From: Methanobacteriota archaeon
GTDB lineage: Archaea; Thermoplasmatota; Poseidoniia; Poseidoniales; Poseidoniaceae
Reading direction: 5' to 3'
Length of the DNA: 40,008 nt
NCBI GenBank assembly: GCA_018701175.1
Contig: JABIWF010000012.1
Location: 1 to 40,008 of the forward strand
A program made the position numbers and the translations under genes. Below, one piece after another: positions 8,944 through 37,453 of this stretch; position 1 is the first letter of the stretch, and each line of letters opens with the position of its first letter. A model generated the notes under the pieces. That model searched no databases, was not told where the DNA came from, and saw only the letters and a program-made list of their open reading frames with translations.

Positions 8944-8952
8944 GGTTTTGGA

Positions 8953-9978: not shown

Positions 9979-9982
9979 AACT

Positions 9983-10870
9983 ATGGCAGTACTCGGCGCA
10001 GGTAAGGCAAACGGTGGATGCAGTCTCTTGCATGCAGCAGGTCTTGGCTATGGCGCAAGCATCGGACTTGATATCCCAATAGCGGTACGGCTACTCGACA
10101 AACCAAGTAAACGGGAGTCGAATGACCCCGACGGACTACTGCCTGCAATAGTTGATGCATGGTTGGAAGCCGGTTTTGAGTTACCAAAAAAAATCGAAAA
10201 AGACGACCTACATTGGGCTGTAATTAGTAAAATACCACCTCGTCAAGGCCTCAAATCCAGTGCAGCAACATCCATTGCGGCATTAAAGGCACTCGCCGAT
10301 GCCACCGACACTGAAGTTTCAGATGAGATGTTTGTTGCCATGGCTGCACAAGCTCAAATCTCTTCTGGCATATCCCTTACTGGCTCAATTGACGATGCAT
10401 GGGCTTGCCTAAAGCCAGGATGGAAACTCATAGACCCACAAGCAGACAGTATAGCCGAGGGTGTGCTTTTCGAAGGAAATGGACCAAGTAATGACGATTG
10501 GTTGGTTATGGTTGTCTGCAGAGGAGAACGTACACATCGTCCACAGTTGGAAGATTTCCCTCCACACGGCGCTGCATTCCAAAAAGCCCTCACCGCTTTA
10601 CAAGAAGAAAATGAATTGGTAGCCATTACCTGGAATGGCCGAGCAATAGTGGCTGTTATGAACGATGTCCAAGGACGGAAAATCACCAACGACGCAATGC
10701 TCAATGGCGCACGTGCTGCTGGCATGTCCGGCTCAGGTAACGCAATCATCGTCCTAGCACCGAAGGTCAGTAAGCCAAGTTGTGATCGATTGAGAGCCTT
10801 GTTTGAAAACAATAAAGACATCGTGAAAGTAATAGAAACATCATTCATAACGGCTGATACTGAACCTTAG
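9983..10870 (+). CDS. Shikimate kinase, archaeal GHMP type
   Basis: Phosphorylates shikimate at the 3-hydroxyl using ATP; unrelated to bacterial AroK and belonging to the GHMP kinase fold. From ATG 9983 it is 295 residues. I reject the ORF track start at 9944, which overlaps the previous gene. ATG 9983 is preceded by GAGGTG at 9972-9977, and the protein then begins MAVLGAGKANGGCSLLHAAG as expected. The ATP-binding GHMP motif is PPRQGLKSSAATS (85-97), and the third motif is AGMSGSGNAIIVLAP near 250. The dehydroquinase, shikimate dehydrogenase and EPSP synthase genes are not in this window. Confidence 0.92.
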   Translation: MAVLGAGKANGGCSLLHAAGLGYGASIGLDIPIAVRLLDKPSKRESNDPDGLLPAIVDAWLEAGFELPKKIEKDDLHWAVISKIPPRQGLKSSAATSIAALKALADATDTEVSDEMFVAMAAQAQISSGISLTGSIDDAWACLKPGWKLIDPQADSIAEGVLFEGNGPSNDDWLVMVVCRGERTHRPQLEDFPPHGAAFQKALTALQEENELVAITWNGRAIVAVMNDVQGRKITNDAMLNGARAAGMSGSGNAIIVLAPKVSKPSCDRLRALFENNKDIVKVIETSFITADTEP

Positions 10871-10920
10871 GGTGAAGACGCAACTTCTTGAAGGAAGGGC
10901 CACTCGAACAAACGAATCCA

Positions 10921-13320: not shown

Positions 13321-14247
13321 TCAGTCTTCTGCACGCTTCTCTCGGTAGCTTTGCAAATGGGTTGGGAGATTGAGGGCAAACAATCCACCGACTACACTGA
13401 AAACAAAGAACGTGCCAAGGGCAACACCGTAAACTGAAATCAATTCCACAGATTCTTCCATTCGAGTAGCCGTATCTTTGGAAAAGATTCCAACAAAGAA
13501 CGGTAGGATGGAGTTTGCTGAAAGAACGATGGTTGCAAGGATGGTTGCGATAATTGGGTTGATGAGAAGAGAGCGGTGATACTTGCCGACAATCTTCTTT
13601 GGATTCATGACATAAACTTCGTTGGTTCGGATACTGGTATCGAGCATCGAGTAACGCAGAACACCGTTGGTTAACTCGAAGTACATGATGAGAAGAACAG
13701 CGTAAACGACTACGAGACCTGAGAGCAGGAAAGGCTTGTCTTGCAAACCAAACATATCGCTTGAAAGCGTAACTTTCGATGATGCGAATCTCAGAATGGC
13801 GAGAATGAACAGAAGGTTACTAACAAGGGTGAATCTACCATCTCGTTGGAAAGTCCCCCAGAATCCGGTCCCTGTAGCGCCTGCAATAATCACCAATTGG
13901 AGTATCGTTGCAAGTCCAAGGCTTCCAGTGAGCATGTACCAAATCGTACCGTCTGGCGGAGAGATGATGTACGTCATCAAGGAAAGCGCTACGAGAACTC
14001 CGTAGACACCGAGTTGAAGGTTCTGAACCATTTTGTCTGGTGGCAAGAACTTCGTTTTAGGGACGAGCGGGCCACCGAGCAGACTTTCGATGAACGAAGG
14101 GATTTCGACTTCTGGAATTGCGTCTTTTGGGATTTCACTCCCAACGCCGACTTGACCTGCTGCCTTCTTACGTGATGGAGCGGATGAACGTACAGTTTTA
14201 CCGTCGTACAGGTGAGCAGTGTCGTTAGATGGTCGTGATACGGTCAT
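13321..14247 (-). CDS. Polytopic membrane protein, last gene of MoxR-DUF58 operon
   Basis: 308 residues from ATG 14247, with GAGGTGA as ribosome binding site formed at the stop of the DUF58 gene. The first 75 residues are soluble and polar (SRKKAAGQ, then an acidic and proline-containing stretch). Five or six hydrophobic helices follow (about 78-97, 104-124, 137-154, 169-188, 229-248 and 275-296). No domain recognised. MoxR/DUF58 clusters often contain membrane proteins thought to work with the AAA+ and vWA-like parts, so this may be the membrane partner. That is inference from position only. Confidence 0.7.
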   Translation of the reverse strand: MTVSRPSNDTAHLYDGKTVRSSAPSRKKAAGQVGVGSEIPKDAIPEVEIPSFIESLLGGPLVPKTKFLPPDKMVQNLQLGVYGVLVALSLMTYIISPPDGTIWYMLTGSLGLATILQLVIIAGATGTGFWGTFQRDGRFTLVSNLLFILAILRFASSKVTLSSDMFGLQDKPFLLSGLVVVYAVLLIMYFELTNGVLRYSMLDTSIRTNEVYVMNPKKIVGKYHRSLLINPIIATILATIVLSANSILPFFVGIFSKDTATRMEESVELISVYGVALGTFFVFSVVGGLFALNLPTHLQSYREKRAED

Positions 14248-14256
14248 GATCTCACC

Positions 14257-15570
14257 TCAGAATCCTCTTGCCCCAGCAAGTGCGGTTGAAAGGAGCATGT
14301 CAGGCTCCCAATCCATAATATTGACACCAAGTCCGCGAAGTTCACTTATGAGAACGTCACGTTCTGTTTTCATAACTTCATATCCGGTTCGGTCGATGCG
14401 TCGGGCATCGAATTCAAACTCGAGAGAAGATGGAGTCAATACTGTGACATCGAAATCACGAGCGCGGAAGTCACGCAACGCATTGACGATGGTTGGGTCA
14501 TCTTCGAGATTGGACAAGAAGATGATTGGACTACCTTTGTTGATGTGCGGCATGATTCTGTTCACAACAACCTGCAGCGGTATGTTTCCACGTGCGACTG
14601 CACCTGCAAGTTTGGTTAGAATCACGTACAATTGTTTTTTACCCGTATCTCTGTCAACGCTCACGACTTCATCGCCGTATACAATGACACCTACGGAGTC
14701 ACGCCGGCCGAGGAAGTATTTGGCAAGTGATGCAGCGGCCCGAGTTGAGTAAACCAATGCATTACGAGACACTGGGCCTGTTTCAGCAACAGACCGCGAA
14801 TCCACAATGATGATGATATCAGAAACAGCGTCACGTTCTCGTTCATTCACCATGAGTTTTCCAGATCGTGCGTATGCAGACCAGTTGATGGCACGGAAAG
14901 AGTCGCCTTCGAAGTATTCTCTCAATGAGTAAAACTCGGAACCTGGGCCTGGTTGTCGAATGTTAACAGCACCCGTGAAAATCTTAGGAACACGGGATTT
15001 TACGAAGGTCTCTTTGAGGTCTTCCATTTTCGGGAACACAAGGAAATCATTGTAGACATGCAATTCTTTTTCCTTGTGGAACAATCCGAATGGGTCTTGA
15101 ATCCTGACAGCCACAGGACCAACACTGTAGAAACCTCGAAGTGGACATTCAACGGTGTATTCAATCAACGTTTCACGGCGTGGACCAAGTTCCATCAAAA
15201 TATAATTTGCACCGTCTTTGATGCGCATAACTTCAGGAACGCGGTCTCGAACTTCCAAAATTTTAGCGAGCGATGAATGGTTTTGCATTCTCAGCGTGAT
15301 GTTTAATTCCCCGTCTTCAAAGATACGAGCACTCGACATTTTCCGCATTGCGGTTACGCTGTTGAGTGCCGCACCTTCCTCACCCGACCATTCTTCTGCG
15401 CGTCGGCCAGTAGCCGCAACGTCAGCGTGACCACCGAAAAGGGCAGCCCAAGTCAGGAAGACAAAGATGACAACTGCAATCGTAACGAGCTGGGAGTTTC
15501 GCAGGGTTAGACCGAGCAAGTACATGGCAATAGCCAAGCTACCGAGCATAGCAGATTTACGACTCCACAT
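14257..15570 (-). CDS. DUF58 domain protein (vWA-like), MoxR partner
   Basis: 437 residues from ATG 15570; this ATG is preceded by GAGGTGA, whereas the ORF track GTG at 15579 overlaps that site. Two N-terminal transmembrane helices (about 5-40) are followed by a cytosolic part. The DUF58 signature is GSEFYSLREYFEGDSFRAINWSAYARSGKLMVNERE. A vWA-like region follows with IIIIVDSRSVAETG (a DxS-type metal-binding start), YGDEVVSV and PIIFLSNLEDDP. Proteins of this family are generally encoded with MoxR AAA+ ATPases and may act as adaptors or assembly factors for membrane or cell-envelope complexes. It is the third gene of the operon starting at DUF4350. Confidence 0.9.
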   Translation of the reverse strand: MWSRKSAMLGSLAIAMYLLGLTLRNSQLVTIAVVIFVFLTWAALFGGHADVAATGRRAEEWSGEEGAALNSVTAMRKMSSARIFEDGELNITLRMQNHSSLAKILEVRDRVPEVMRIKDGANYILMELGPRRETLIEYTVECPLRGFYSVGPVAVRIQDPFGLFHKEKELHVYNDFLVFPKMEDLKETFVKSRVPKIFTGAVNIRQPGPGSEFYSLREYFEGDSFRAINWSAYARSGKLMVNERERDAVSDIIIIVDSRSVAETGPVSRNALVYSTRAAASLAKYFLGRRDSVGVIVYGDEVVSVDRDTGKKQLYVILTKLAGAVARGNIPLQVVVNRIMPHINKGSPIIFLSNLEDDPTIVNALRDFRARDFDVTVLTPSSLEFEFDARRIDRTGYEVMKTERDVLISELRGLGVNIMDWEPDMLLSTALAGARGF

Positions 15571-15603
15571 CACATTCACCTCAAATTCAGTTTAGAACTG
15601 TAA

Positions 15604-16779
15604 TCAAACAGTTGGTACAGGAACTTCTCGTAGAATCGCTTGAATCACTTCACCGGACTCAAGGCCCTTGATTTGATGCTCAGGCTTGAGAATAATTCGG
15701 TGTGCGAGTGCGAGTTCGGCAATTGCTTTGATGTCATCAGGAGTGACGAAGTCACGACCACGAAGTGCTGCAGCAGCACGGGATGTCTTCAGCAATGCTT
15801 GGGAACCACGAGGTGAAGCGCCGACCAAAACACGAGGATCTTCACGAGTTCGGGATACAACTTCGACCATGTACATTCGAAGAGCAGGGTCTACGTAGAC
15901 GAATTCACATGCTTGTTGCATGTTAATCACCATTTCAGGGTGAGTAATAACTTCGACTTCGACAGCGTCCTTTCCACGAGAAATACGACGGGATAGAATC
16001 TCGTCTTCGTCTGCACGGTCAGGGTATCCGACGGACATCTTGAACATGAAACGGTCAAGTTGTGCTTCAGGGAGCGGGTATGTACCTTCTTGTTCGACAG
16101 GGTTTTGAGTCGCCATAACAATGAACGGAGCTGGGAGCTTGTGAGTCACTGTACCAATGGTAACTTGCTTCTCTTGCATAGCCTCAAGCAAAGCAGCTTG
16201 AGTCTTTGGAGGAGCACGGTTAATCTCGTCAGCGAGCAGAAGATTACAGAACAATGGTCCTGGCTTGAATGTAAATTCACCCTTCTTTGCGTCATAGATG
16301 TTCGTACCTGTGATGTCAGCAGGGAGCAAGTCAGGCGTAAATTGAACACGCTTGAAGTCGCAACCTAGCGCATCAGCGAAGGTGTTGGTCATCAGTGTCT
16401 TAGCCAGACCTGGGTAATCTTCGAACAGAAGGTTACCATTGGAAAGAATGTTGATCAAGACGTTATCGATAACGTGTGCTTTACCGATAATTACTTTCTG
16501 GACTTCGGCAGCGATTGCACTTGCAATCGAACCGACGGCCTTCAACTTCTCTTTGTTTTCTGGGCTGGTTTGGTGCTTCGGTTGAACCGGAGCGGCCGGT
16601 GCTGGCGCTGCTGGGGCTGGTGCTGGCGCTGCAGGTGCTGCTGGCATAGGCGCTGGTGCTGCTGGCATAGGTGCCGCAGGCATTGGCGCTGCTGGTGCAG
16701 GCATTGCAGGTGCTGCTGGGGCCACAGGAGCTGCTGGCGCTGGCGCGGGCGGGGCTGCTGGGGGGGCGGGGGGTTGCAT
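15604..16779 (-). CDS. MoxR-type AAA+ ATPase with Pro/Ala-rich N-terminal tail
   Basis: 391 residues from ATG 16779, with GGAGGA 8 bases upstream. Residues 1-67 are almost only Pro and Ala with a few Met and Val; the ATPase follows from about 75. Walker A is FEDYPGLAKTLM (119-130, the MoxR form of GxxGxAKT), Walker B LLADEINRAPPKTQAALLEAM (181-201), and then MATQNPVEQEGTYPLPEAQLDRFMFK, typical of MoxR. The lid domain ends near HRIILKPEH. MoxR proteins remodel partner complexes, usually with a vWA/DUF58 partner, which is the next gene. The Pro/Ala tail is unusual for the family and may be a flexible linker or tether. Confidence 0.93.
   Translation of the reverse strand: MQPPAPPAAPPAPAPAAPVAPAAPAMPAPAAPMPAAPMPAAPAPMPAAPAAPAPAPAAPAPAAPVQPKHQTSPENKEKLKAVGSIASAIAAEVQKVIIGKAHVIDNVLINILSNGNLLFEDYPGLAKTLMTNTFADALGCDFKRVQFTPDLLPADITGTNIYDAKKGEFTFKPGPLFCNLLLADEINRAPPKTQAALLEAMQEKQVTIGTVTHKLPAPFIVMATQNPVEQEGTYPLPEAQLDRFMFKMSVGYPDRADEDEILSRRISRGKDAVEVEVITHPEMVINMQQACEFVYVDPALRMYMVEVVSRTREDPRVLVGASPRGSQALLKTSRAAAALRGRDFVTPDDIKAIAELALAHRIILKPEHQIKGLESGEVIQAILREVPVPTV
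16582..16773 (-). repeat. GC-rich degenerate repeat encoding Pro/Ala tail of MoxR
   Basis: Degenerate short repeats of GCTGCTGG/GGCATAGG type on the plus strand encode APMPAAP- and APAPAAP-like units on the minus strand. Base composition here is far more GC-rich than the surrounding sequence. Such tracts vary in length by slippage. Confidence 0.7.
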
Positions 16780-16798
16780 GTCTATTTTCCTCCAATTA

Positions 16799-18379
16799 TC
16801 AATTTCCCCAACGACGTATTTGTGGGATAACTTCCCTCAATTCTTCGTTGGAGTAGGAACGGTTGGAGCTGATGAGCTCAACCAAGCGCGGGTCACGAAC
16901 CATTTGCATGATTTCCGCAGGCGTCTTACGCATGAATTCATCACGCGTCAAATCATTAAACTGTCGAACCTTCGAAAGCAATGCTTCTCTGGTTCGCATT
17001 TGGTATTGAGATGCATCCAATTTCTTTGGACGTTCTCTAAAGCGAGTAAGGTCGAATACGTGGCGCCAATTTTCTTTTTCTGGAACCACCATGATTGCAA
17101 TGGCAAGCAGTGCGAAGAGATTGAGAATAATGAGCCACTTGAGGACAACATCGCTGGTCAAGAGTACGACTGCACCCATTGCTTCGGTGAAAGGAGATGA
17201 AAGAGCGCTGGAGACGTGACGGCTTTCATCAAAGACAACATAATGCTCCGAAGGCGATCGGCGGATGGTGTTCGAAAGTTCTGCATTGTCAAATTCCATC
17301 ATGTCGTAAATCAGTGCGCTGAAATATTTGCTGTTTCCGTCCCAATTCGTGTCTCCTTGTGCCGAGGAGAGTCCGTTCGGGTCGGTATCCCAACAGTTGT
17401 GCCCATTTTCGAGGTATGCGGGCGAAGTACATTGGAGGTAGCCGTTCTCTTGAGCCAAGTCTGCATCCCAAAGGTGGTTTGCAAGAACTGAGTGGTCTGA
17501 TACGAAGACGATTGAACCTGTGACATCAACTTCTCCAATGTCGTTGTTAGGCATCTTGTCAAGGACGTTCTTAACAGGGTAGTCTATTCGAATAATGAGT
17601 CCAGTCATTCCTTCGCCCAAGGTAGGGTTGAGATCGCTGTCGATGTTATCTGGGAATTTTGCAACTCGAGCAGATGTTGATGCTGCTGCAAGGATGTTCA
17701 CTTCTCGGTTCGAATCGGTTTGTTCATCGAGAACTTGGATTGCTGTAGGCCGATGGAAGAGAACGGGCATTCGGCAGTTGTCGATTTGAGCGTTCGCAAC
17801 TGCTTCATCAGAACATGGAATGAGTTTTTCATCACCCATTTCACTTATGTTTTGGTTGACGCTGGCAGCCGACCAAAGACGACGATAATCTGCAGGTTGG
17901 ATAGCACCCACTGAATCCTCGACTTCGTAGTATCGCTGGTCGTCATAGACCGGGGCGTCGAAATATTTCACGCCAAACTCCTCCGCAACAAGTTGAGCGT
18001 TGGTCGAACTTGCAGCTAAGATAACCTTGCCACCTTTTTCAGTGACGAAATCGTGGAGTGCTGATGCTTCTGCAGCGTCGAATGGCTTTTCTGGACCTGC
18101 AATAATGAGCATGCTTCGGTGTGGATCATTCCAGTCGTTCACTAACATTGGCGTTGACATGGTGTTTGCGATGCTGTAGTCTTTGCCTTCGAGGACTTCT
18201 CTCATCTCAGTCAACTGTTGCATAGAATACTCATCGGCTGCGTTGTTGTAAGGGGAGAGAACGGTTGTCTTGTCCCAACTTACCGCTGTAACAACGATGA
18301 TTGACAAAAACAGGGATGCGACAAAGCCGACTTTGAGCCAAGTTTCAATAGAAATCTTGCCTGAATTTTCTTCTGCCAT
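16799..18379 (-). CDS. DUF4350 domain membrane protein, first gene of MoxR operon
   Basis: 526 residues from ATG 18379, chosen because AAGGAGTGA lies directly upstream and a TATA box stands at a fitting distance; the ORF track start at 18448 lies upstream of that TATA box. A transmembrane helix at about 13-33 is followed by a large domain. It contains MLIIAGPEKPFDAAEASALHDFVTEKGGKVILAA, the part typical of DUF4350 (a GATase-like fold), then long segments with few charged clusters. A second helix lies near 425-450 (LKWLIILNLFALLAIAIMVV), and a basic cytoplasmic tail of about 75 residues ends the protein. DUF4350 proteins commonly occur beside MoxR and DUF58, as here. The biochemical role is unknown. 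Confidence 0.82.
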   Translation of the reverse strand: MAEENSGKISIETWLKVGFVASLFLSIIVVTAVSWDKTTVLSPYNNAADEYSMQQLTEMREVLEGKDYSIANTMSTPMLVNDWNDPHRSMLIIAGPEKPFDAAEASALHDFVTEKGGKVILAASSTNAQLVAEEFGVKYFDAPVYDDQRYYEVEDSVGAIQPADYRRLWSAASVNQNISEMGDEKLIPCSDEAVANAQIDNCRMPVLFHRPTAIQVLDEQTDSNREVNILAAASTSARVAKFPDNIDSDLNPTLGEGMTGLIIRIDYPVKNVLDKMPNNDIGEVDVTGSIVFVSDHSVLANHLWDADLAQENGYLQCTSPAYLENGHNCWDTDPNGLSSAQGDTNWDGNSKYFSALIYDMMEFDNAELSNTIRRSPSEHYVVFDESRHVSSALSSPFTEAMGAVVLLTSDVVLKWLIILNLFALLAIAIMVVPEKENWRHVFDLTRFRERPKKLDASQYQMRTREALLSKVRQFNDLTRDEFMRKTPAEIMQMVRDPRLVELISSNRSYSNEELREVIPQIRRWGN

Positions 18380-18384
18380 TTCTA

Positions 18385-18424
18385 TCACTCCTTGTGCGGT
18401 TGCCGTAGTCTCAACGGTATAAAC
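18385..18424 (-). promoter_or_regulatory. Promoter and ribosome binding site of DUF4350-MoxR operon
   Basis: On the minus strand, GTTTATACC (18424-18416) is a good archaeal TATA box. A start about 26 bases downstream would fall near 18394, giving a leader of around 15 bases that contains the ribosome binding site AAGGAGTGA (18393-18385) before ATG 18379. This separates the operon from the upstream molybdenum hydroxylase genes. Confidence 0.6.
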
Positions 18425-18529
18425 AACCGTCGGAACATCGCTCCACACTTAATGCTTGTTCATGCGTGATTTGAAGCCACAGGTTAATAGGAGAGGAAAA
18501 AGGTTAACCCTAGTAGTGTTCAGTTGAGT

Positions 18530-18576
18530 AAAAATGTGCTAAAAATAAAGAAAATAACACCCAAAAAACGGTAAAA
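18530..18576 (-). terminator. T-rich archaeal-type terminator after secreted-protein gene
   Basis: Read on the minus strand, just after the stop of the secreted protein, there are successive T-tracts: TTTT, TTTTTT, TTTT, TTTTT and TTTTT within about 50 bases. Runs of T without a required hairpin are the usual archaeal termination signal. The tracts end the 25.6-18.6 kb transcript. Confidence 0.6.
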
Positions 18577-18583
18577 TAGCGTT

Positions 18584-19549
18584 TTATGACGATTTACGCA
18601 GAACAGAAACGAAACCCAGCAGCAAGAGCAACTCTATGCCGCCAACCCACGGTACGGAATTGGACTCTTCACGCAAGAGAACATCGTCATCCTCTTGGTC
18701 GTCGTTGTTTGAAGATGTATCGTCATCATCAGCCTGGATAGCCTCGACATCCACCTCAAAGGTTGTGCTTCGAGATGCTTCATCACCTTCTGATTCTAAA
18801 GATAATGTCACCTCACAAACGCGGGTTGGTTGGCTGGTTGAGGCTTCAAGAGTGAGCGTCACAAATGTATCCTTACCGCTTTGAGCACCGGTAGGGTCAA
18901 CCACGGTATTGGCAAGTTCTTCGACGCCAACCATCGAGAGATGTGGGCAACTCCTAAACTGTACCGTTGCTTCTTTGATAGCATCTTTAGTGTTTCCATT
19001 GTTGATGATTTGGGCCGTGAATTCGATCGACGAACCAGCGAACAATTGTTCCTCTGGCAGTGACACAGTGGATCGTAAGTCGAATATTTTCGGGACGCTG
19101 ACATCCCCTTCAATTTCTTGGGTACTGGCGGTTGTGTCGCCAACCTTTTCTTCTGCGGTGACCGTCAGCATTGAGGTGTTGCCCGGGTTGTATTCACGTG
19201 CAGCATCATCATCAACAGAATCAAATTGAATACTGAATGTTTCGTTTCCATTGGCAGCGACTGAAAAAGTATCGGGGCCTGAAAATGTGAACGGTACCCA
19301 AGAATCAAACTCATACTCAAGAGCAATTTCCAGCTGCGCCATTCTGTTGTTTTCAACATATACCACGATTTCGCCTTCAGCATCCCAGTCGATATCCATG
19401 TCTACAATATACGTTGAATCCATGTCTGTAGCCCATCCAAGAGCCCATGATGGACCTTCGATGGGTGATTGCGCTTCAACAGAAACTCCACCTAAAACGG
19501 ACAATCCAAGTAAGAAAGTCGCTAGCATGACAAGTACTTTCTGTTGCAT
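18584..19549 (-). CDS. Secreted protein with C-terminal membrane tail, unknown function
   Basis: 321 residues from ATG 19549, with GAGGTGG upstream that overlaps the stop of the FAD-subunit gene. A signal peptide occupies 1-26 (ends SVEAQS). Two beta-rich segments resembling CARDB/NEW3-type immunoglobulin-like domains follow (one around NRMAQLEIALEYEFDSWVPF, another around IEFTAQIINNGNTKDAIKEA). Then comes an Asp/Asn-rich linker (about 270-290) and a C-terminal hydrophobic helix with SVLRKSS at the end. The layout is like archaeal surface proteins held by a C-terminal helix or processed by an archaeosortase, but no PGF-type motif is visible. It is the last gene before a T-rich terminator and possibly cotranscribed with the hydroxylase genes. 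Confidence 0.7.
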   Translation of the reverse strand: MQQKVLVMLATFLLGLSVLGGVSVEAQSPIEGPSWALGWATDMDSTYIVDMDIDWDAEGEIVVYVENNRMAQLEIALEYEFDSWVPFTFSGPDTFSVAANGNETFSIQFDSVDDDAAREYNPGNTSMLTVTAEEKVGDTTASTQEIEGDVSVPKIFDLRSTVSLPEEQLFAGSSIEFTAQIINNGNTKDAIKEATVQFRSCPHLSMVGVEELANTVVDPTGAQSGKDTFVTLTLEASTSQPTRVCEVTLSLESEGDEASRSTTFEVDVEAIQADDDDTSSNNDDQEDDDVLLREESNSVPWVGGIELLLLLGFVSVLRKSS

Positions 19550-19558
19550 GATTCCACC

Positions 19559-20533
19559 TCATTCAATCATTTTTTCGACCGCTCGCTTGGTTAGCACCCG
19601 CACCATTGATTTACGGTAACGAGGTGGAAGTGAGGTGTTGTTTACTGGTTTGACACTCTTTCGAACTGCTGCTGCAAGAGCCTTGACGGAGTTCATCCCA
19701 TCCCAACCTGTTTCGAGAACCGAGGTAACTTCCTCAGGGTGGCATCGTGGAATCGACTCAAGTGCAGTCGTTGCTACTTTGAGGGAAGTTGCGTCACCAG
19801 CAATCCAAGATGCGGCGACTCCAGCCTCTGGGAAATCCCAGGTATCACGAACTCTAAGTTTCTGGTAAGAACCTGTTCTCGCTGCAGACGCTTCAGAAAG
19901 AGTGATTTTAAGCAGGAACTCTCCCTTTTCAAGAACGTTCTTTTTCATTCCATCAAGTTGGTAAAACTCTTGCAAAGGCATTGTACGCAGTCCACTTGGA
20001 CCGATGAGGTGAACCTCTGCCTCCAGAACCATGAGGGTTGGAGCAATGTCACCTTGATAGGTCGCAACGCACAATGTGTTTTGGTTTGGAACGACACGGC
20101 AATCAGCACCTGTGCCGCAATCTGCCTTGTGGCACCAGTCAATAGAACGACGCCAGTCTTCACCTTGATTGTACCAGAAACAACGAGTGTCAAGGCATAA
20201 GTTGCCGCCCAGTGTAGCATTTCTTCGGATAAGGGAAGACGCCACTTTACTTGCAGCTTCCACAATCAATGGATGAATTCCGTTCTCGACGGTTAGATCG
20301 GCTAGTCGAGCCATACACCCTATTTCATGCAATGATAATGTGTTCACACCCTCGATTCGAGCAAGTGAAATCACGTGCGGTTTAGGATTCAAGTGCCATT
20401 TGTAATTCGGCAGCAAGTCTGTACCTCCAGCAACCCAATCGAAATCTTCACCCTTTTCCATCAGAGAGCCAGCAATTGCGCAGGCTTCTTCGACGGTTGT
20501 TGGATTGTGCAACACAAACGGTGGCATTAGCAT
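19559..20533 (-). CDS. FAD subunit of molybdenum hydroxylase, with HcrB-like cysteine insertion
   Basis: FAD-binding subunit of a xanthine oxidase-family enzyme; passes electrons between the iron-sulfur subunit and the outside acceptor. 324 residues. FAD-binding motifs: WVAGGTDLLPNYK (33-45) and RRNATLGGNLCLDTRC (103-118). Between this and the next block (YQGDIAPTLMVLEA, 159-172) is a cysteine-rich insertion with Cys118, 134, 139, 145 and 155. In 4-hydroxybenzoyl-CoA reductase the beta subunit has a similar insertion (LDTRC...YNQ...) that binds a [4Fe-4S] cluster. The spacing Cys118-Cys134 fits it, and Cys145 and Cys155 can take the other two positions. The start ATG overlaps the stop of the large subunit as TGATG, preceded by GGTGA. 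Confidence 0.88.
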   Translation of the reverse strand: MLMPPFVLHNPTTVEEACAIAGSLMEKGEDFDWVAGGTDLLPNYKWHLNPKPHVISLARIEGVNTLSLHEIGCMARLADLTVENGIHPLIVEAASKVASSLIRRNATLGGNLCLDTRCFWYNQGEDWRRSIDWCHKADCGTGADCRVVPNQNTLCVATYQGDIAPTLMVLEAEVHLIGPSGLRTMPLQEFYQLDGMKKNVLEKGEFLLKITLSEASAARTGSYQKLRVRDTWDFPEAGVAASWIAGDATSLKVATTALESIPRCHPEEVTSVLETGWDGMNSVKALAAAVRKSVKPVNNTSLPPRYRKSMVRVLTKRAVEKMIE

Positions 20534-23337
20534 CAGTTTTCACCCCCCATCTCTCGTTGTTCCTTTTTCAGCCAAGCTCGGCCTGCAAGACCAAGTTCAG
20601 CCAGTTGCTCAGGATCGGGTTCAGTTGCTGTGCGCCATCCTTCGACTTGGTCTTCCAATGGAATGGTTGGGTCAAACCCAAACAAGACTCCATTGACGTA
20701 TGGGCTTGTGTCTTCAGTACGTTGCCGTGCTTTATCACGCAATTTGTGTTCTTGAGCACGTGCCACAAGTGTTGGTTGCAATGAACTGTGTGTTAGTCGA
20801 GGGCTTGGAAGGTCCAATGGGTCGTCTACTTTCGAATTTTTGAGAGTCTTTTCGATTCCTTTGAACACGACATCAGGGGTAAGGGGTAGGTCGCGCAAAC
20901 GGATGCCTATGGCGTCGTAGACTGCATTCACAACAGCCGGAAGAATCGGTAGAAGTGGGCCTTCGCCTGCTTCTTTCGCACCGAATGGACCTTCCGGGTC
21001 ACAGGATTCAATGATAATCGGTTCGACATGTGGCATTTCGTGTACGGATGGTATCTTGTAATCCAAGAGATTGGCATTTTGCAAGTGGCCAGTGCGACCA
21101 TATACCATCTTCTCAGACAACACCTGTCCAAGTCCCATATGGCATGAACCAATTATTTGTCCTTTCACTGCCATTGGATTGAGAGCCTTGCCGCAGTCGT
21201 GGGCTGCCCAAACGTCGGTACAACGAATCATTCCAGTTTCCACATCCACATCGACTTCAGCCACATAGGCTGAGAAAGAGTATGCGGGAGCAAGACCTGC
21301 AGCAGCACCCTTGTGAACTCCACCCATAGGTGGCGAGCGGTATGCGCCGCTTGCAATCAGCGAGCCTTTGTCTTCCTGTGCTTTGTGCAGTGCTTTGAGA
21401 TACGAGACACCAATTGCTGGGTCGTGCTTGTAGTAGATACGTCGGTCATTGAGAACCAAATTATCTGGATGGTATCCTAGAATATCCCAGGCTGCATTGA
21501 GCAATTGTTCTCGGATTTCCAATGCTGCTCGGATTGCAGCATTTGCATTCATGAAGGTGACTCGACTCGAGTATGAGCCTAAATCCACTGGTGATGTGTC
21601 GCTTTCATGGCTTCGAACATGAATCATTTCGATCGGTAAAGCCAACACTTCAGATACCACTTGGGCAACTGCCGTCGTCGAACCCTGACCGATATCCGCA
21701 GCGCCTGTATGGACCGTTACACCGCCGTCCATATCCACTTGAATGTGTACCGTGGCGTGTGGGAATCGGTTCGGGTCCCAATGAATTGGCAATCCAGAAC
21801 CGGAGATGAAGAAGCCACAGCCGATGCCTATTCCTTTACCAAGAGGCATTTGACGGAACTTCTCATCCCAATTCGAACCTTCACGGACTTTCTCTAAAGC
21901 CTCTCTCATTCCGTTCGAAGTAATACGGAAACCACTGATGGTTCTGCTGTGTGGAGGCAAAAGGTTGGCAAGTCTCAAATCGATGGGGTCGACTTGCATG
22001 GTTTCGGCCATTTCATCGAGTCCGACTTCAACTGCGCATCGAGTGTTGACAGCGCCGTGACCTCTCATTGCACCAGAAGCCGGTTTGTTGGTCCAAACAC
22101 GAGCGCCGGTATAATGGAATGAACCCAGTTCATAGGGCGCTGTTGCCAATACACCGTTGTAGTACGAAGTGACGTGACCGAAGGAAGCAAAACCACCACC
22201 ATCAATCAGGGCATCGATATCGAAGCCAGAAATTCGAGCTTCTTCATCTGCAGTCATCTTGACTTCGATATGGCTCGGATGTCGGCCTCTGTTAATCCAG
22301 TAGACTTCTTCTCGGTCAAAGGTAATTCGAACCGGCCGGCCGGCTTTGCGAGCAAGAATTGCAGCGCACATCTCATGAGGGAAAGGGTCAGATTTTCCAC
22401 CAAACCCACCGCCAACAAACGTACGGATGACGTTGATTTGATGCATTGGAACATCAAGAACGGTTGAAAGTGCTCGATGCGTATAGTGAGGGACTTGTTG
22501 TGGCGTGTAGAGTTGGAGCCTTCCATTCGGACCCCAATGGGCAACGACGGCGTGAGGCTCAGTGAACCCGTGATGGACACCAGCCATGCTCCATTTGCCG
22601 TGGGACTCAGCATGAGGTTTATCGACCAAAGAACGGTCTCCGAATTCTTGGAATACTCTCTTTTGAACATTGGTCTTCGACAAATGGTACTTTCCTCGCC
22701 AGTGAATCGGTTCATCTGCGTCCTCAAGACCCTTTTTTGGATCGAATACTGGTTCAAGAACTTCCCATTCAACCTCGAAGAGGTTGAGTGCTTCAAGTGC
22801 CGTTGCTTCATCAACAGCGGCTACGCATGCAACAAGGTCGCCAACGTGGCGAACTTTCTCAACGGCCATTGCGTGTTCGTCTTTTGTCACGGGCAATACG
22901 CCAAAACGGTGAGGTGAATCTTCGCCGGTTGCTACAGCCAATACCCCTGGAAGAGCTTCGACTCGAGAGGTGTCAATCGACTTAATTCTAGCATAATGGT
23001 GCGGGGAACGAAGAATTTTCCCTATGATTTCATTTGGCAAACGGACATCGTCGCCGTACCATGCTTGTCCAGTGACTTTGGCATTCGAATCTACGAGTGG
23101 GATTTCCTTACCAACGGTCGTACCGGTTCGGGCCCGGTCGTGTATGTGAGAACCGGCTGGTTGTTCCTCTTTTCCACCGACAGATTCGGGAATGAAATCC
23201 AAGTCTCGTGGTTTCATGTGCGGGCGTGAGCCGCCTGAGCCTGGAGGCGGGAACGATTGCTTACCAGCAACACGCTTGCCATCCTTTCGAGTTGTTTGGC
23301 CTGAGCCACCGGGTTGTTGACGATATCCACCTGACAT
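20533..23337 (-). CDS. Molybdopterin-binding large subunit of molybdenum hydroxylase
   Basis: Catalytic subunit of the xanthine oxidase family, binding the molybdenum cofactor. 934 residues from ATG 23337 (GGTGA upstream; the ORF track GTG at 23346 is three codons earlier). Residues 1-60 are Gly/Pro/Gln-rich and not part of the family. Family blocks: NAKVTGQAWYGDDVRLPN (about 85-102), TFVGGGFGGKSDPFPHEM (Mo domain start), GAMRGHGAVNTRCAVE, and GPFGAKEAGEGPLLPIL near 790, where Glu after KEAG is the catalytic glutamate equivalent. About 100 residues beyond the usual end (VNGVLFGFDPTIPLEDQVEG and so on) form an extra C-terminal tail. The GAKEAGEG form and subunit order resemble 4-hydroxybenzoyl-CoA reductase; the substrate is unknown. 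Confidence 0.92.
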   Translation of the reverse strand: MSGGYRQQPGGSGQTTRKDGKRVAGKQSFPPPGSGGSRPHMKPRDLDFIPESVGGKEEQPAGSHIHDRARTGTTVGKEIPLVDSNAKVTGQAWYGDDVRLPNEIIGKILRSPHHYARIKSIDTSRVEALPGVLAVATGEDSPHRFGVLPVTKDEHAMAVEKVRHVGDLVACVAAVDEATALEALNLFEVEWEVLEPVFDPKKGLEDADEPIHWRGKYHLSKTNVQKRVFQEFGDRSLVDKPHAESHGKWSMAGVHHGFTEPHAVVAHWGPNGRLQLYTPQQVPHYTHRALSTVLDVPMHQINVIRTFVGGGFGGKSDPFPHEMCAAILARKAGRPVRITFDREEVYWINRGRHPSHIEVKMTADEEARISGFDIDALIDGGGFASFGHVTSYYNGVLATAPYELGSFHYTGARVWTNKPASGAMRGHGAVNTRCAVEVGLDEMAETMQVDPIDLRLANLLPPHSRTISGFRITSNGMREALEKVREGSNWDEKFRQMPLGKGIGIGCGFFISGSGLPIHWDPNRFPHATVHIQVDMDGGVTVHTGAADIGQGSTTAVAQVVSEVLALPIEMIHVRSHESDTSPVDLGSYSSRVTFMNANAAIRAALEIREQLLNAAWDILGYHPDNLVLNDRRIYYKHDPAIGVSYLKALHKAQEDKGSLIASGAYRSPPMGGVHKGAAAGLAPAYSFSAYVAEVDVDVETGMIRCTDVWAAHDCGKALNPMAVKGQIIGSCHMGLGQVLSEKMVYGRTGHLQNANLLDYKIPSVHEMPHVEPIIIESCDPEGPFGAKEAGEGPLLPILPAVVNAVYDAIGIRLRDLPLTPDVVFKGIEKTLKNSKVDDPLDLPSPRLTHSSLQPTLVARAQEHKLRDKARQRTEDTSPYVNGVLFGFDPTIPLEDQVEGWRTATEPDPEQLAELGLAGRAWLKKEQREMGGEN

Positions 23338-23342
23338 AATAA

Positions 23343-24023
23343 TCACCGTGCGTGGCCTGGAGGCATGTTTGGCTCTTCAGGACCCTCTGGGTGAGGGTCA
23401 GGATGTGGGTCGCTTGCAGGTGCTGCAGCCTCGACTTCACCTCTGTGAATAGCCGCTGCGCCTTTGATTGAATCAATGATTTGTTGGTATCCAGTGCATC
23501 GGCAAAGGTTGCCTTCAATGGCACAAGCAATTTCTTTATCGGTCGGCGAATCGTTTTCATTCAGTAAAGCCTGAGCAGAGATGAGGAAACCAGGCGTACA
23601 AAAACCACACTGCGAACCTCCATGTTCGGCAAAGCATGATTGGATCGGTGCAAGGTGTGCACCGTCAGCAAGCCCTTCGACCGTCGTGATGACCGAGCCT
23701 TCAACCTGTCCGGCTAGACAGAGGCAAGACAATCGAGGATTGCCATCCACCATCACGGTGCAACATCCACAGGTTCCAAGATCACAACCTCGCTTTACGC
23801 CAAGCGTGCCGACCTTGTCGCGCAGGACATCGAGCAGAACTGCATTGGATGGAACTAAAACTTCAACTGGAGTTCCGTTGACCTCTGCAGACCAGACTTT
23901 TTTCTTCGGACTTGGTATCATTTCGATATGTTCGCTACCCACCATATTCTGTCGCCAAAGGCGACGTAGTGGCGCCCGCATATCAACATAGGGTATGCCG
24001 CTGTTGCTGAAGCAACAACTCAT
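23343..24023 (-). CDS. [2Fe-2S] subunit of molybdenum hydroxylase
   Basis: Small electron-transfer subunit with two [2Fe-2S] clusters. 226 residues. The N-terminal plant-ferredoxin-type cluster has GCDLGTCGCCTVMVDG (Cys80, 85, 88) and Cys100; the second cluster has CGFCTPG (139, 142) and CRCTGY (174, 176). All eight ligands are present. It is longer than the usual 155-165 residues: about 40 residues precede the ferredoxin domain, and a Pro/His/Glu-rich tail follows (residues 195-226, DPHPDPHPEGPEEPN). The start at 24023 overlaps the acyltransferase stop (ATGA), but no clear ribosome site is present and an internal ATG at 23921 would give a more normal N-terminus. Confidence 0.92.
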   Translation of the reverse strand: MSCCFSNSGIPYVDMRAPLRRLWRQNMVGSEHIEMIPSPKKKVWSAEVNGTPVEVLVPSNAVLLDVLRDKVGTLGVKRGCDLGTCGCCTVMVDGNPRLSCLCLAGQVEGSVITTVEGLADGAHLAPIQSCFAEHGGSQCGFCTPGFLISAQALLNENDSPTDKEIACAIEGNLCRCTGYQQIIDSIKGAAAIHRGEVEAAAPASDPHPDPHPEGPEEPNMPPGHAR

Positions 24024-33438: not shown

Positions 33439-33993
33439 ATGGGTGGAGAACATGAGCGCTTGGTTTGGATCGATCTTGAAATGACGGGACTCGACATCAC
33501 GAAAGAGTCCATCATTGAAATCGCCACTGTCGTTACGGACGGCGAACTGAACATCTTGGCCACAGGGCCAAACCTAGCAGTTACGGTCTCAGAAGAACTT
33601 CTAGCAGGGATGGATGAGTGGAACACAACTCATCACCACGCAAGTGGACTTGTCGAACGAGTTCGCACCCAAGGTGTCTCTTGTTCTCATGCCGAAATTC
33701 AAACGCTTGAGTTCCTCAAAGAATGGGTACCACATGGCTCTGCTCCATTGTGCGGTAACAGTGTATGGAACGACAAGAAGTTCATGGAGAAGGAAATGCC
33801 TCAACTTGTGGATTTTTTGCACTATCGAATGATTGATGTTTCAACGGTCAAGGAACTTGCCCGCCGTTGGTATCCTGAGGCTGGCAGATACGAGAAAAAG
33901 GGAGCGCACTTAGCGCTCGATGACATTCTTGAATCCATCGAAGAGTTACGCTACTTTAGAGAAAAAATATTCATTTCCAAAAACGAATCATAA
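33439..33993 (+). CDS. orn: Oligoribonuclease
   Basis: 3'-5' exonuclease of the DEDDh family that finishes degradation of 2-5 nt RNAs and dinucleotides such as pGpG. 184 residues, the usual length. Active-site residues: Asp12 and Glu14 (WIDLEMTGLD), Asp112 (CGNSVWNDKKF), His157 and Asp161/162 (KGAHLALDDILESI). FLHYRMIDVSTVKELARRWYPE also matches the family. Orn is typical of Proteobacteria, Actinobacteria and eukaryotes and uncommon in archaea, so horizontal transfer is likely. Its 3' end overlaps the convergent XdhC gene by 6 bases. Confidence 0.95.
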   Translation: MGGEHERLVWIDLEMTGLDITKESIIEIATVVTDGELNILATGPNLAVTVSEELLAGMDEWNTTHHHASGLVERVRTQGVSCSHAEIQTLEFLKEWVPHGSAPLCGNSVWNDKKFMEKEMPQLVDFLHYRMIDVSTVKELARRWYPEAGRYEKKGAHLALDDILESIEELRYFREKIFISKNES

Positions 33994-34854
33994 CCGCCAA
34001 TTTGGGGAATTTGCATCGACGTTCTTGAACGAAGCCATAACTTGGGCTACGACAGCTACAGCAATTTCCTCAGGTGATTCCGCACCAATGTTCAGTCCAA
34101 TAGGACAAATCACTGCGTCAAGAATAGGTTGAGAAATACCTTCACTTCGGCAAGATTTCTCAAATGCTTGCCACTTAGAACGGCTACCAATGACGCCAAT
34201 ACGGGGTCCACTTGCACCGTCTGGAAGTGCATCGTTGTCGTTGTACATGTGTAGCAATTTTAGAAGACGCTCTTGGTCTTCACTCCAATCATGACCGAGC
34301 AAAAGGATATCTGAAAAGCGGCCCATAGATTGGAGATTTTCTTTGGCAAAAAAGGAATCAATTGTGTCACTTGAATTTGAGAGCGCATTGGGATACAAGG
34401 TTGAGTCCGCAAATTCGGGACGTGTGTCGTGCACCGAGTGTTTCCAGCCAAGGGCATCAAGAGAGGCTGCAATCGCTTGCCCACAATGCCCACCACCCAT
34501 CAACAACACATGCGGCATCGGTATCATCACCTCAATCGAAAGGGTAACTTGACCCCCACACAGTGAATCAAGAGGTTTCACTTCATAGCCCTTCGCACCC
34601 TTGTTGAGTCCGAAACGGAGTACCTCGCCATACGGTGTGGGATTCAAAGTGAGCAGTTCTCGACATCGTGCCAAGACCTTCATCTCCAAGCCCGCACCAC
34701 CAACCGTTCCCGTCCAATCTTGATTCATAGACATGGCAAGCCGTGCACCAACCTTACCTGGAACGCTGCCTGAAGTTTCTACAACACTGGCAAGAACGAC
34801 ACGTTGCCCGCCAGCCAACTGCGATAAGGCCCATGCCATCACCGCTGCAGTCAT
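33988..34854 (-). CDS. XdhC/CoxI family molybdenum cofactor maturation protein
   Basis: 288 residues from ATG 34854. XdhC proteins bind the molybdenum cofactor, protect and sulfurate it, and insert it into xanthine dehydrogenase-type enzymes. The N-terminal domain has VVLASVVETSGSVPGKVGARLAMS (19-42), with the GSVPGKVGARL signature, and TVGGAGLE. The middle SLCGGQVTLSIEV (about 97-109) carries the conserved CGG. The C-terminal Rossmann-like domain begins HVLLMGGGHCGQAIA (115-129) with a GxGxxG-type loop. MocA-type gene 45 bases upstream on the same strand: the two form a cofactor maturation pair for the molybdenum hydroxylase encoded 10 kb away. Confidence 0.92.
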   Translation of the reverse strand: MTAAVMAWALSQLAGGQRVVLASVVETSGSVPGKVGARLAMSMNQDWTGTVGGAGLEMKVLARCRELLTLNPTPYGEVLRFGLNKGAKGYEVKPLDSLCGGQVTLSIEVMIPMPHVLLMGGGHCGQAIAASLDALGWKHSVHDTRPEFADSTLYPNALSNSSDTIDSFFAKENLQSMGRFSDILLLGHDWSEDQERLLKLLHMYNDNDALPDGASGPRIGVIGSRSKWQAFEKSCRSEGISQPILDAVICPIGLNIGAESPEEIAVAVVAQVMASFKNVDANSPNWRL

Positions 34855-34898: not shown

Positions 34899-35492
34899 TC
34901 ACACGCCATTGAGGAGTTCTTGCTCATGAATTGATAGAGTTTCCAAGTCTTCTGGCGTGTCGATATTCAAATCGAGAAGAGGAGCATCAACAAGATGTTC
35001 GGAGAACTTGACAATGTCTCTTAATGGTACATCGGCATTCGATGTCAAAATGGATTCGATTGCAGCGTTATCCAAAAAAATGGGGTGGCCTTTGCGACCT
35101 TGAGAAGCAAGAGCGGAAGAGACGTTCGACTCAAGGAGAGACTTGACATGAGAAATGTTCCATCCTGGCCGGTCAACTGGGGCGACAATCACGCCTCTTG
35201 GAATGCGACCTTTGTCACCTGCAAGCGATAAGATTCCGCACTGAAGGCTGCCAGTTCGCCCCTTTTCAGGAGATGGGTTTGAAAGAACATTCGAGCCAAT
35301 CGTCTGTTGCATGATCTCGAAGGCGAGTTCACTTCGAGTAACTATTACAATTGGAGAACAACCGGCTTTGTCCAATTTTTGGTACGCCATACCGACAAGG
35401 GTTGTATCACCAATACGCACCAGTGATTTGGGTTGTCCAAGCCGTTGACTTGCGCCGGCTGCGAGTATAATTGCCGGACAAGGACGTGCCAT
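34899..35492 (-). CDS. mocA: MocA-type molybdenum cofactor cytidylyltransferase
   Basis: Transfers CMP from CTP to molybdopterin, giving the cytosine dinucleotide cofactor used by many xanthine oxidase-family enzymes. 197 residues from ATG 35492. The nucleotidyltransferase signature is ILAAGASQRLGQPKSLVRIG (9-28). Then come NPSPEKGRTGSLQCGI (72-87), VAPVDRPG for the metal site, KGHPIFLD (about 133-140; the GHP-x-x motif is typical of MocA), and NIDTPEDL near the end. A guanylyl-specific MobA is less likely because the large subunit next to the FAD and FeS subunits belongs to the family that uses MCD. Divergent from the acidic protein at 35559. Confidence 0.88.
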   Translation of the reverse strand: MARPCPAIILAAGASQRLGQPKSLVRIGDTTLVGMAYQKLDKAGCSPIVIVTRSELAFEIMQQTIGSNVLSNPSPEKGRTGSLQCGILSLAGDKGRIPRGVIVAPVDRPGWNISHVKSLLESNVSSALASQGRKGHPIFLDNAAIESILTSNADVPLRDIVKFSEHLVDAPLLDLNIDTPEDLETLSIHEQELLNGV

Positions 35493-35558: not shown

Positions 35559-36272
35559 ATGTCCCAAGAAAGTTACAGAATGTCCGAACCAGAACTTCGT
35601 TCCGTCGAAATGCTTCAAGGAGTCGTTAAATCAACCTCTGCAACCCTTGTGCTTCTCACGCAAACTGAGATCAAGGTGAGGGTTCAAGGAGAATCAAAAC
35701 GCTGGTACGAAATCTATGCGAAATACCATGGTCACCACGACATATTCGACCACGATAACGGTTGGAATTATTCTGTGAACGCTGGAAGGCGCGAAAGTGA
35801 CATTGTGGATGAAAACGATTACTGCGCCCAGTTGTGCCTTCATGCTAACGAACAGAACCTGCCTATCGGCGACCAAATAGTCACAGTGATTTTATCGCTC
35901 TCCAACGATATTCAAACGGCAATGGAAATCCCCTTGTTGGCTCAGTTCATTGTGTGTACACGTCAGATGCTAGCAAACATTATGATTTTTCAAGATACAA
36001 TGATTGTCACCGAAGAGATGGCCGAATACGGACATGATTGGATGGAGGAAGAACACGAAGAAGAGATGTACCATCAAAATAACGAATATGAAAACCACCA
36101 AATGATAGAGGAAATGCAATCTTTGGAAGACTTTCTTGAACTCCAGGAAGAAAACGATGAACAGTTAGAGGCACAAAGAGAAGCTATCGAGGAAAAAAAG
36201 AGGAAGAGAGACGACCATTTAACGGATTTTTGGAATCACATGGTCGACAAGTTCCACGACAAAGAATCATAG
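35559..36272 (+). CDS. Acidic protein with C-terminal coiled coil, unknown function
   Basis: 237 residues from ATG 35559; GTG 35511 (ORF track) and ATG 35580 are alternatives. The first 150 residues look globular, with beta-rich sequences such as SATLVLLTQTEIKVRVQGESKRWYEIYAKYHGH and IVTVILSLSNDIQTAM. From about 160 it is dominated by Glu, Met, His and Gln (EEEHEEEMYHQNNEYENHQMIEEM), then a charged coiled coil and a basic KKRKRDD segment. No domain recognised. No signal peptide or membrane helix, so cytoplasmic. Its end overlaps the convergent acyl-CoA dehydrogenase by 6 bases. Codon use looks like its neighbours, so it is probably real. Confidence 0.65.
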   Translation: MSQESYRMSEPELRSVEMLQGVVKSTSATLVLLTQTEIKVRVQGESKRWYEIYAKYHGHHDIFDHDNGWNYSVNAGRRESDIVDENDYCAQLCLHANEQNLPIGDQIVTVILSLSNDIQTAMEIPLLAQFIVCTRQMLANIMIFQDTMIVTEEMAEYGHDWMEEEHEEEMYHQNNEYENHQMIEEMQSLEDFLELQEENDEQLEAQREAIEEKKRKRDDHLTDFWNHMVDKFHDKES

Positions 36273-37415
36273 ATGCTTGGTTATTTCTCGACCAATAATC
36301 ATCTTTTGAACTTGCGATGAACCCTCGTAGATTTGCATAACCTTAGCACCTCGCATGAGGCGAGCAACCGGGTATTCCTCTGAATAGCCGTATCCGCCGT
36401 AAACCTGGACTGCATCGGTCGAGACTTCCATGGCCGTATCTGCGGCAAAACGCTTTGCGTGGGCTGCAGATTCCGTGTTTTGAACACCTGCATCAGAATC
36501 AGCAGCAGATTTCCAAGTCAGCATTCGTGACGCTTCAATCTTGGTCTTCATGTCAGCAAGCATGAATTGTATCGCTTGATGCTTATGCAAAGGTTTGCCA
36601 AAAGTAGTACGCTCACCGGAGTATTGCAAAGCGTGTTCGTACGCTGCTCGAGCAAGGCCGGTAGCATGCGCTGCAATGTTTGGGCGGCTCATGTCAAACG
36701 CCTTCATAGCGTTCATCCAGCCACCAGATTCCGAGCCGCCGACCAATTGGTCTGCCGGAATACGGACATCGTCGAACTGTATCGAGCGTGTATCCGAGCA
36801 TCGTTGTCCCATGTTGCTTTCCTTCTTACCAAGAGAAAATCCATCGGCTGAACTTTCAACAATGAATCCCGACATCCCTTTGTAACCAGCATCAACATCA
36901 GTCTTTGCGAGAACAAAGAAGAAATCTGCGTATCCTGCACCTGTAATCCACATTTTCGAGCCATTGATGACGTATTCATCTCCGTCTCGAACGGCTGAAG
37001 TTTTACACGCCGCCACATCAGAACCCGCTCCTGGTTCAGTAACTGCATAGGAGGCGAGTTTGCCTTCTTCAGAAACCATCCGCAACCATTTTTGTTTCTG
37101 TTCCTCGGTTGCCCCTGTAATAATTGGAGCACAAGCCAATGATGTGGCGTATGCTGCTGTTGCAAAACCAGGGTCACCCCATGCGAGTTCCTCGTTCACC
37201 AGTACTTCTTCCATCGAACCGAGACCAGGACCACCATAGTCTTCTGAGATATGCAAATTGAGCAATCCCATCTCATGTGCGGCTTGGATTGCTTCTTTGG
37301 GATAAATTGACTCTGCATCCCAATGTTCAGCATGTGGACGGATTTCATCAACAGCAAACTCATGTGCCAATTCCCTCAGCATCTCTTGCATCTCGTCCAG
37401 TTGGAAGTTCACCAT
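36267..37415 (-). CDS. Acyl-CoA dehydrogenase
   Basis: FAD enzyme that introduces the alpha-beta double bond into acyl-CoA, first step of beta-oxidation or branched-chain amino acid breakdown. 382 residues from ATG 37415 (the TTG at 37421 is weaker). Family signatures: YAVTEPGAGSDVAACKT, near 125-140, and the C-terminal QVYGGYGYSEEYPVARLMRGAKVMQIYEGSSQVQ. Glu in IYEGSS matches the catalytic base of the short/medium-chain group. MWITGAGYADFFFVLAKT and RPNIAAHATGLARAAYEHAL are also typical. Chain length preference cannot be told. With the E1-beta gene near the window end, this suggests fatty-acid or branched-chain keto-acid oxidation in an aerobe. Confidence 0.94.
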   Translation of the reverse strand: MVNFQLDEMQEMLRELAHEFAVDEIRPHAEHWDAESIYPKEAIQAAHEMGLLNLHISEDYGGPGLGSMEEVLVNEELAWGDPGFATAAYATSLACAPIITGATEEQKQKWLRMVSEEGKLASYAVTEPGAGSDVAACKTSAVRDGDEYVINGSKMWITGAGYADFFFVLAKTDVDAGYKGMSGFIVESSADGFSLGKKESNMGQRCSDTRSIQFDDVRIPADQLVGGSESGGWMNAMKAFDMSRPNIAAHATGLARAAYEHALQYSGERTTFGKPLHKHQAIQFMLADMKTKIEASRMLTWKSAADSDAGVQNTESAAHAKRFAADTAMEVSTDAVQVYGGYGYSEEYPVARLMRGAKVMQIYEGSSQVQKMIIGREITKHL

Positions 37416-37453
37416 GGACAACCCAAGGAGTCGCCCCTTATTTCTTCATTGTT

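Follow-up and report, generated by a model that had tools for sequence, protein, structure and literature searches.

Archaea of Marine Group II (Ca. Poseidoniales) are abundant in the surface ocean and uncultured, and the literature presents them as consumers of peptides, lipids and carbon from algae. In the genome of one of them, three adjacent genes encode what resembles the 4-hydroxybenzoyl-CoA reductase (4-HBCR, HcrABC) of Thauera aromatica, including a cysteine motif inserted in the FAD subunit of the type that binds an additional [4Fe-4S] cluster. The question raised by this locus is which reaction such an enzyme carries out in an apparently aerobic archaeon, and how widely it is distributed among the relatives of its host. 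The DNA analysed here (the window) is a stretch of 40,008 nucleotides from contig C16 of a 1.9-Mb assembly that is 86% complete, and its genes for heme A synthase and tryptophan dioxygenase mark the host as aerobic. The named assemblies among the relatives recovered with the FAD subunit belong to Ca. Poseidoniaceae, Poseidoniales and Marine Group II, which places the host in Marine Group II.

Passages of a genome survey report that Marine Group II make the molybdenum cofactor (PMC6461757), and the passages of that survey retrieved by term search name no Xdh- or Hcr-type enzyme as its user. In term searches the present enzyme did not come up in either of the principal genome papers on Marine Group II (PMC6461757, PMC6336850), nor did aromatic breakdown in PMC6336850 and PMC9723583. 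In the open literature, subscription papers and most preprints aside, no earlier report was found that linked these archaea, under either name, to benzoyl-CoA, to 4-hydroxybenzoyl-CoA or to the degradation of aromatics; among the papers listed, the only match was a class I benzoyl-CoA reductase in a sediment order.

Subunits of the enzyme and their distribution

The operon consists of three genes in the order Fe-S, Mo and FAD subunit, neighbours overlapping by 1-4 bases (Table 1). Pfam and NCBIfam domains reproduce the three-subunit Mo/FAD/2x[2Fe-2S] plan of HcrABC and, judged by sequence, the operon encodes an Hcr-type heterotrimer of the xanthine oxidase family. In profile and structure-sequence searches the best characterised match of each subunit was 4-HBCR, with E-values of 1.2e-48 for the FAD subunit against PDB 1rm6_B and 4.8e-178 for the Mo subunit against 1rm6_A. 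The top NCBIfam models for the FAD, Mo and Fe-S subunits were TIGR03195, TIGR03194 and TIGR03193, with scores (234, 778 and 178 bits) that lie below the respective equivalog cut-offs of 404.6, 994.6 and 257.8. Three active-site segments of the Mo subunit, GAMRGHG, SYSSRVTFM and GPFGAKEA, are common to HcrA and missing from XdhA, PaoC and CoxL.

Table 1. Genes and motif of the window that are discussed in the text
Feature	Position	Strand	Basis
FAD subunit, HcrB-type, 324 aa	19559..20533	-	FAD_binding_5; TIGR03195 top; 1rm6_B; model TM 0.81
Codons of the inserted [4Fe-4S]-type Cys motif, Cys118 to Cys155 (extra Cys139)	20069..20182	-	HcrB alignment; 50 loci; all Hcr-type relatives
HcrA-type Mo-cofactor subunit of 937 aa, extended at both ends in this lineage	20533..23346	-	MoCoBD_1/2; TIGR03194; 1rm6_A
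[2Fe-2S]x2 subunit, HcrC-type	23343..23945	-	Fer2/Fer2_2; TIGR03193; relatives start at MVG
XdhC-type Moco sulfuration/insertion chaperone	33988..34854	-	PF13478, PF02625; ortholog placement
MocA-like nucleotidyltransferase, LAAG motif	34899..35492	-	PF12804; ILAAGASQRLG; ortholog pairing with XdhC and enzyme in other orders
Medium-chain-type acyl-CoA dehydrogenase, likely functional partner	36267..37421	-	MCAD 1udy_A, E 7.6e-112; ortholog linkage

With the Thauera enzyme (PDB 1rm6/1sb3) the archaeal protein shares the subunit plan, the HcrA-type active-site segments including GPFGAKEA, and four cluster cysteines with TRC..YNQ-type spacing. It differs in sequence identity (about 33% for the FAD subunit, and no more than 46% for the Mo subunits of Poseidoniales), in scoring under the equivalog cut-offs, in belonging to a separate clade, and in having the Cys139 insertion and an extended Mo subunit. 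The hosts differ as well, the archaeal one being aerobic, and the ring-opening dehydrogenase that marks anaerobic benzoyl-CoA breakdown is missing in most of the archaeal genomes.

The earlier note had attributed low-complexity tails to all three subunits, which proved largely wrong. The FAD subunit has the length of HcrB and no extra tail. At the N-terminus of the Fe-S subunit, whose open reading frame was listed to position 24023, the first 26 residues are a start-site artefact, relatives beginning with MVGSE or its equivalent; the Pro/His/Asp-rich C-terminal end of this subunit is real. Also real are the extensions of the Mo subunit, comprising about 75 residues at the N-terminus, where a part with GYRQQPG...PGSGG is conserved, and about 105 at the C-terminus, which contain a Y-NG-LF motif and matched no solved structure. 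With a mean identity of 63%, vs 84% for the core, the Mo extensions are moderately conserved and not low-complexity.

The FAD subunit is encoded by 95 out of 100 relatives, and the 19 high-quality genomes have it without exception, normally in a single copy; the enzyme is nearly universal in Marine Group II. The same layout occurs in two families, which rules out a chance or assembly feature. Viral contigs contained no relative of Thauera HcrB by the patterns used, and plasmid records gave only matches of about 24-31% identity. The idea that this is the sole molybdenum enzyme of the cell is unsupported, since most Poseidoniales encode a PF00384 protein, possibly NuoG-like.

The inserted cysteine motif and the phylogeny of the subunits

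Five cysteines of the FAD subunit had been read as an inserted HcrB-type cluster site, a reading that stood for four of them. In a HMMER alignment Cys118, Cys134, Cys145 and Cys155 fall on Cys122, Cys138, Cys146 and Cys155 of Thauera HcrB, the established ligands of the [4Fe-4S] cluster in 1rm6. These columns are cysteine in 50, 49, 50 and 49 of 50 Poseidoniales loci (a few genomes being counted twice), where the missing cases stem from ambiguous bases in a single assembly, and the four-cysteine motif is conserved in all Hcr-type relatives. The fifth, Cys139, lies within a three-residue insertion confined to Poseidoniales, is replaced by alanine in one genome and is missing from every other relative, and is therefore not a core ligand. 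An AlphaFold2 model of the subunit is confident in its overall fold, with 1rm6_B as first match; in the cluster loop, residues 119-124 and 136-150 have pLDDT values below 50.

FAD subunits of the CoxM/XdhB type lack the insertion entirely, whereas in those of the PaoB type the four cysteines belong to another motif (RTRCPYFYD in PaoB, QRPRCWYFR in relatives). The extra cluster had been presented as a puzzle of anaerobic chemistry in an aerobic host. By itself it does not imply anaerobiosis, because the periplasmic aldehyde oxidoreductase PaoABC of E. coli (PDB 5g5g), whose host lives with oxygen, has a four-cysteine [4Fe-4S] insertion in its FAD subunit. The gene context does favour an aromatic or acyl-CoA substrate.

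Phylogenetic trees were computed for the FAD subunit, with the insertion columns excluded, and for the Mo subunit, by a quick search without bootstrap. The HcrA, HcrB and CoxL sequences in these trees were taken from the search alignments and lack their chain ends, and named bacterial Hcr sequences are represented only in part. The FAD tree places the window protein, other Thermoplasmatota, bacteria of the KSB1 phylum and Thauera HcrB in one clade (99/96), separate from PaoB and from CoxM/XdhB. Topology tests rejected a forced grouping of the Poseidoniales FAD subunits with CoxM/XdhB (p-AU 0.0008) and likewise one with PaoB (p-AU 0.0017), and the 4-HBCR-like assignment of the earlier note is borne out to this extent; forcing them with HcrB alone gave a p-AU of 0.056, which is no formal rejection. 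The Mo tree contains an Hcr superclade (support 99), inside which Thermoplasmatota and KSB1 form a clade of their own, apart from HcrA. In both trees, then, the characterised HcrA and HcrB stand outside the archaeal and KSB1 clade and within the shared Hcr superclade. Together with the HcrA-type segments, this placement defines an Hcr-type enzyme by anatomy, 4-HBCR proper being a narrower class whose cut-offs the archaeal subunits do not reach.

Gene context and putative ring-degrading genes

Genes for an XdhC-type chaperone and a MocA-like nucleotidyltransferase lie 10-12 kb upstream of the operon. Their orthologs directly precede the FeS-Mo-FAD genes in other Thermoplasmatota and lie nearby in the other Poseidoniales family, and because of this adjacency we regard them as the pair that would mature the enzyme from some 10 kb away. 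The MocA-like gene points to a cytidylated molybdenum cofactor. Beyond this pair lies the acyl-CoA dehydrogenase gene, whose product is closest to medium-chain enzymes, so that aliphatic acyl-CoA chemistry is possible. Orthologs of it (51-53% identity) are found just upstream of the Fe-S gene in the KSB1 genomes L188, L190 and L201, and the cluster of L188 also contains genes for an aldehyde dehydrogenase, an enoyl-CoA hydratase, a thiolase and a 3-hydroxyacyl-CoA dehydrogenase. In the other Poseidoniales family the acyl-CoA dehydrogenase gene is beside or near MocA in L032, L036 and L049 and not in L037-L039.

A close relative of the enzyme, L195/L211, which in the Mo tree branches just outside the clade of Poseidoniales and KSB1, sits in a benzoyl-CoA pathway cluster. 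There, 6-hydroxycyclohexenoyl-CoA dehydrogenase (Had) and 6-oxocyclohexenoyl-CoA hydrolase (Oah) score above their cut-offs, dienoyl-CoA hydratase-like and BcrB-like proteins score below theirs, and a gene of the CoA-ligase type is present.

Several other neighbourhoods were recorded. Part of the KSB1 copies (L188, L190, L201, L206, L207, L210) have a SUF-like Fe-S assembly operon upstream, and in a second KSB1 subclade (L186, L187, L191) a gene of the Glu/Leu/Phe/Val dehydrogenase type adjoins the FAD gene. A divergent Hcr-like FAD subunit, grouped with L195 in the FAD tree, is encoded within L068:2474-11502 in genome G102, which belongs to the same class as the genome of the window; its neighbours are a 3-hydroxyacyl-CoA dehydrogenase/crotonase fusion, two hydantoinase-like genes and XdhC/MocA-like genes. 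Within the window, positions 13321-19549 downstream of the FAD gene encode a small secreted protein, a DUF4350 protein, a MoxR ATPase, a DUF58 protein and one further gene, whose order is the same in the two families of Poseidoniales. Since MoxR proteins help to mature other molybdenum hydroxylases, the one in the window may have a role here. A compact run at positions 8146-13318, convergent with the gene block of the enzyme and conserved in parts across the order, resembles the shikimate pathway (DeoC/LacD-type aldolase, DHQ synthase II, GHMP kinase, chorismate synthase and amino-acid kinase).

A BoxB-like protein was present in 33 of 40 Poseidoniales and in each of 13 high-quality genomes. 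It matches the benzoyl-CoA epoxidase BoxB (3per_A) with an E-value of 1.2e-53 and has diiron-type motifs, and it scores below the cut-off of its own family. Its gene is located elsewhere in the genome than the Mo operon (contig C122:10353-11513 in the genome of the window), next to genes for a 3-hydroxyacyl-CoA dehydrogenase, an oxepin-CoA-hydrolase-like crotonase and an aldehyde dehydrogenase. The presence of such a protein alongside the enzyme in nearly all Poseidoniales is a likeness to the aerobic benzoyl-CoA (box) pathway, from which they differ in the score below the family cut-off and in that the pathway is seen only in part. Outside Poseidoniales, in an even sample of the phylum, BoxB-like proteins (E below 1e-30) occurred in 15 of 18 genomes with an Hcr-type gene (FAD subunit, E below 1e-40) vs 4 of about 194 genomes without one, counts that were read by hand from the two lists after these had been seen. 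The Fisher p-value is 8e-17 by genome, a figure inflated by kinship, and about 1e-4 by family.

A minority of Poseidoniales encode a further route. Had scored above its cut-off in 8 of 319 genomes, which represent six genera and both families, and all eight genes stand in clusters for class I benzoyl-CoA reductase (BCR) with BcrC-B-A-D, Dch, Had and Oah; most clusters also contain a short-chain dehydrogenase, a hemerythrin and a tryptophanase/tyrosine phenol-lyase-like enzyme, and two are cut by contig ends. Contamination is an unlikely source, given that G+C content matches the contig in the three clusters checked, that the cluster and a BoxB-like gene share a contig in G068 and G576, and that the layout is shared by eight genomes of six genera. 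Close to one BCR cluster, on the opposite strand, lies a divergent Mo-subunit gene (L244:17568-20000). It was rejected as a second copy of the enzyme, since its active-site segments resemble those of XdhA (RGYG) and the HcrA-type ones are missing.

Substrate and direction of the reaction

On the evidence, an aryl- or acyl-CoA is a likelier substrate than an aldehyde, a purine or CO. Our preferred reading, for which we judge the chances to be about even, is an aryl-CoA (de)hydroxylase tied to an oxygen-dependent Box-like pathway, dehydroxylation being the likelier direction. The large subunit would carry an MCD-type molybdenum cofactor, the small one two [2Fe-2S] clusters, and the middle one FAD and presumably the extra [4Fe-4S] cluster, which may connect the enzyme to ferredoxin or another one-electron carrier. 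The reaction would most likely take a hydroxyl group from, or add one to, the ring of a CoA thioester of an aromatic or similar unsaturated acid, the conversion of a 4-hydroxybenzoyl-CoA-like compound to aryl-CoA being preferred to the oxidative direction. The product would then be degraded in CoA-bound form by beta-oxidation-type enzymes together with the BoxB-like epoxidase, which would depend on oxygen; class I benzoyl-CoA reductase may also take part in a small number of genomes.

This aryl-CoA reading is supported by the homologs, the cluster ligands, the active-site segments, the trees, L195/L211, the acyl-CoA dehydrogenase, the co-occurrence with BoxB-like proteins and the BCR clusters. 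Set against it are the missed equivalog cut-offs, the position of true Hcr outside the clade, the BoxB-like score under its cut-off, the medium-chain-like acyl-CoA dehydrogenase with its partial linkage, and the amino-acid dehydrogenase beside the enzyme in one KSB1 subclade. To our knowledge, moreover, aerobes usually have no need to dehydroxylate 4-hydroxybenzoyl-CoA, which also counts against it.

The same acyl-CoA gene context and the aerobic markers of the window would also suit an oxidative CoA-thioester hydroxylase. Such an enzyme, of which 2-furoyl-CoA dehydrogenase is a known example, would place water-derived oxygen onto a heteroaromatic or unsaturated acyl-CoA and pass electrons through FAD and the [4Fe-4S] cluster to respiration. 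Members of the xanthine oxidase family as a rule work oxidatively (PMC10420851). Sequence, tree and active-site segments, however, all put the reductase HcrA closest among the characterised enzymes, in a comparison set without 2-furoyl-CoA dehydrogenase (HmfABC), and the close relative L195/L211 lies in a benzoyl-CoA cluster. We consider this alternative rather unlikely. Still less probable is a PaoABC-like aldehyde or general oxidoreductase, whose [4Fe-4S] cluster would serve only a non-NAD acceptor and for which the CoA context would be incidental. PaoB does share the four cysteines, and PaoABC oxidises aromatic aldehydes (PMC3958847), but grouping with PaoB is rejected by the tree test given above and PaoC has other active-site segments (RAPG, no SYSSR). 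An ordinary carbon monoxide or xanthine dehydrogenase of the CoxM/XdhB type, which would share superfamily and fold, has next to no probability in view of the insertion, the rejected grouping and the absence of the CoxL loop YRCSFR and of XdhA segments from the Mo subunit.

For the preferred dehydroxylating aryl-CoA enzyme there is a further parallel in urolithin C dehydroxylase (Ucdh) of Enterocloster bolteae, the second of only two reductive dehydroxylating enzymes counted in the xanthine oxidase family (PMC12771579). Ucdh likewise has 4-HBCR as its closest characterised relative (32.7% identity), three subunits and an XdhC helper (PMC12771579). It differs in its anaerobic gut host and non-CoA substrate, and the likeness drawn here is one of description, not of sequence.

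The nearly universal Hcr-type enzyme, the BoxB-like protein and the occasional BCR clusters together lead to the prediction that aromatic acids are degraded by these archaea in the form of CoA thioesters. The findings suggest a processing of aromatic acids in Marine Group II in which oxygen probably plays a part. We tentatively extend this to a hybrid route, possible though doubtful as a whole, in which an order-wide, oxygen-tolerant Hcr-type aryl-CoA dehydroxylase and subsequent BoxB-like ring epoxidation would form one pathway for aromatic acids, for example those from aromatic amino acids, to which a minority of species would add ATP-dependent benzoyl-CoA reductase. The enzyme is relevant to the question of whether, in the xanthine oxidase family, only anaerobes carry out reductive dehydroxylation. 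If the hybrid route is real, a combination of reductive dehydroxylation and oxygen-dependent epoxidation of aromatic acids would be run by the most abundant archaea of the surface ocean.
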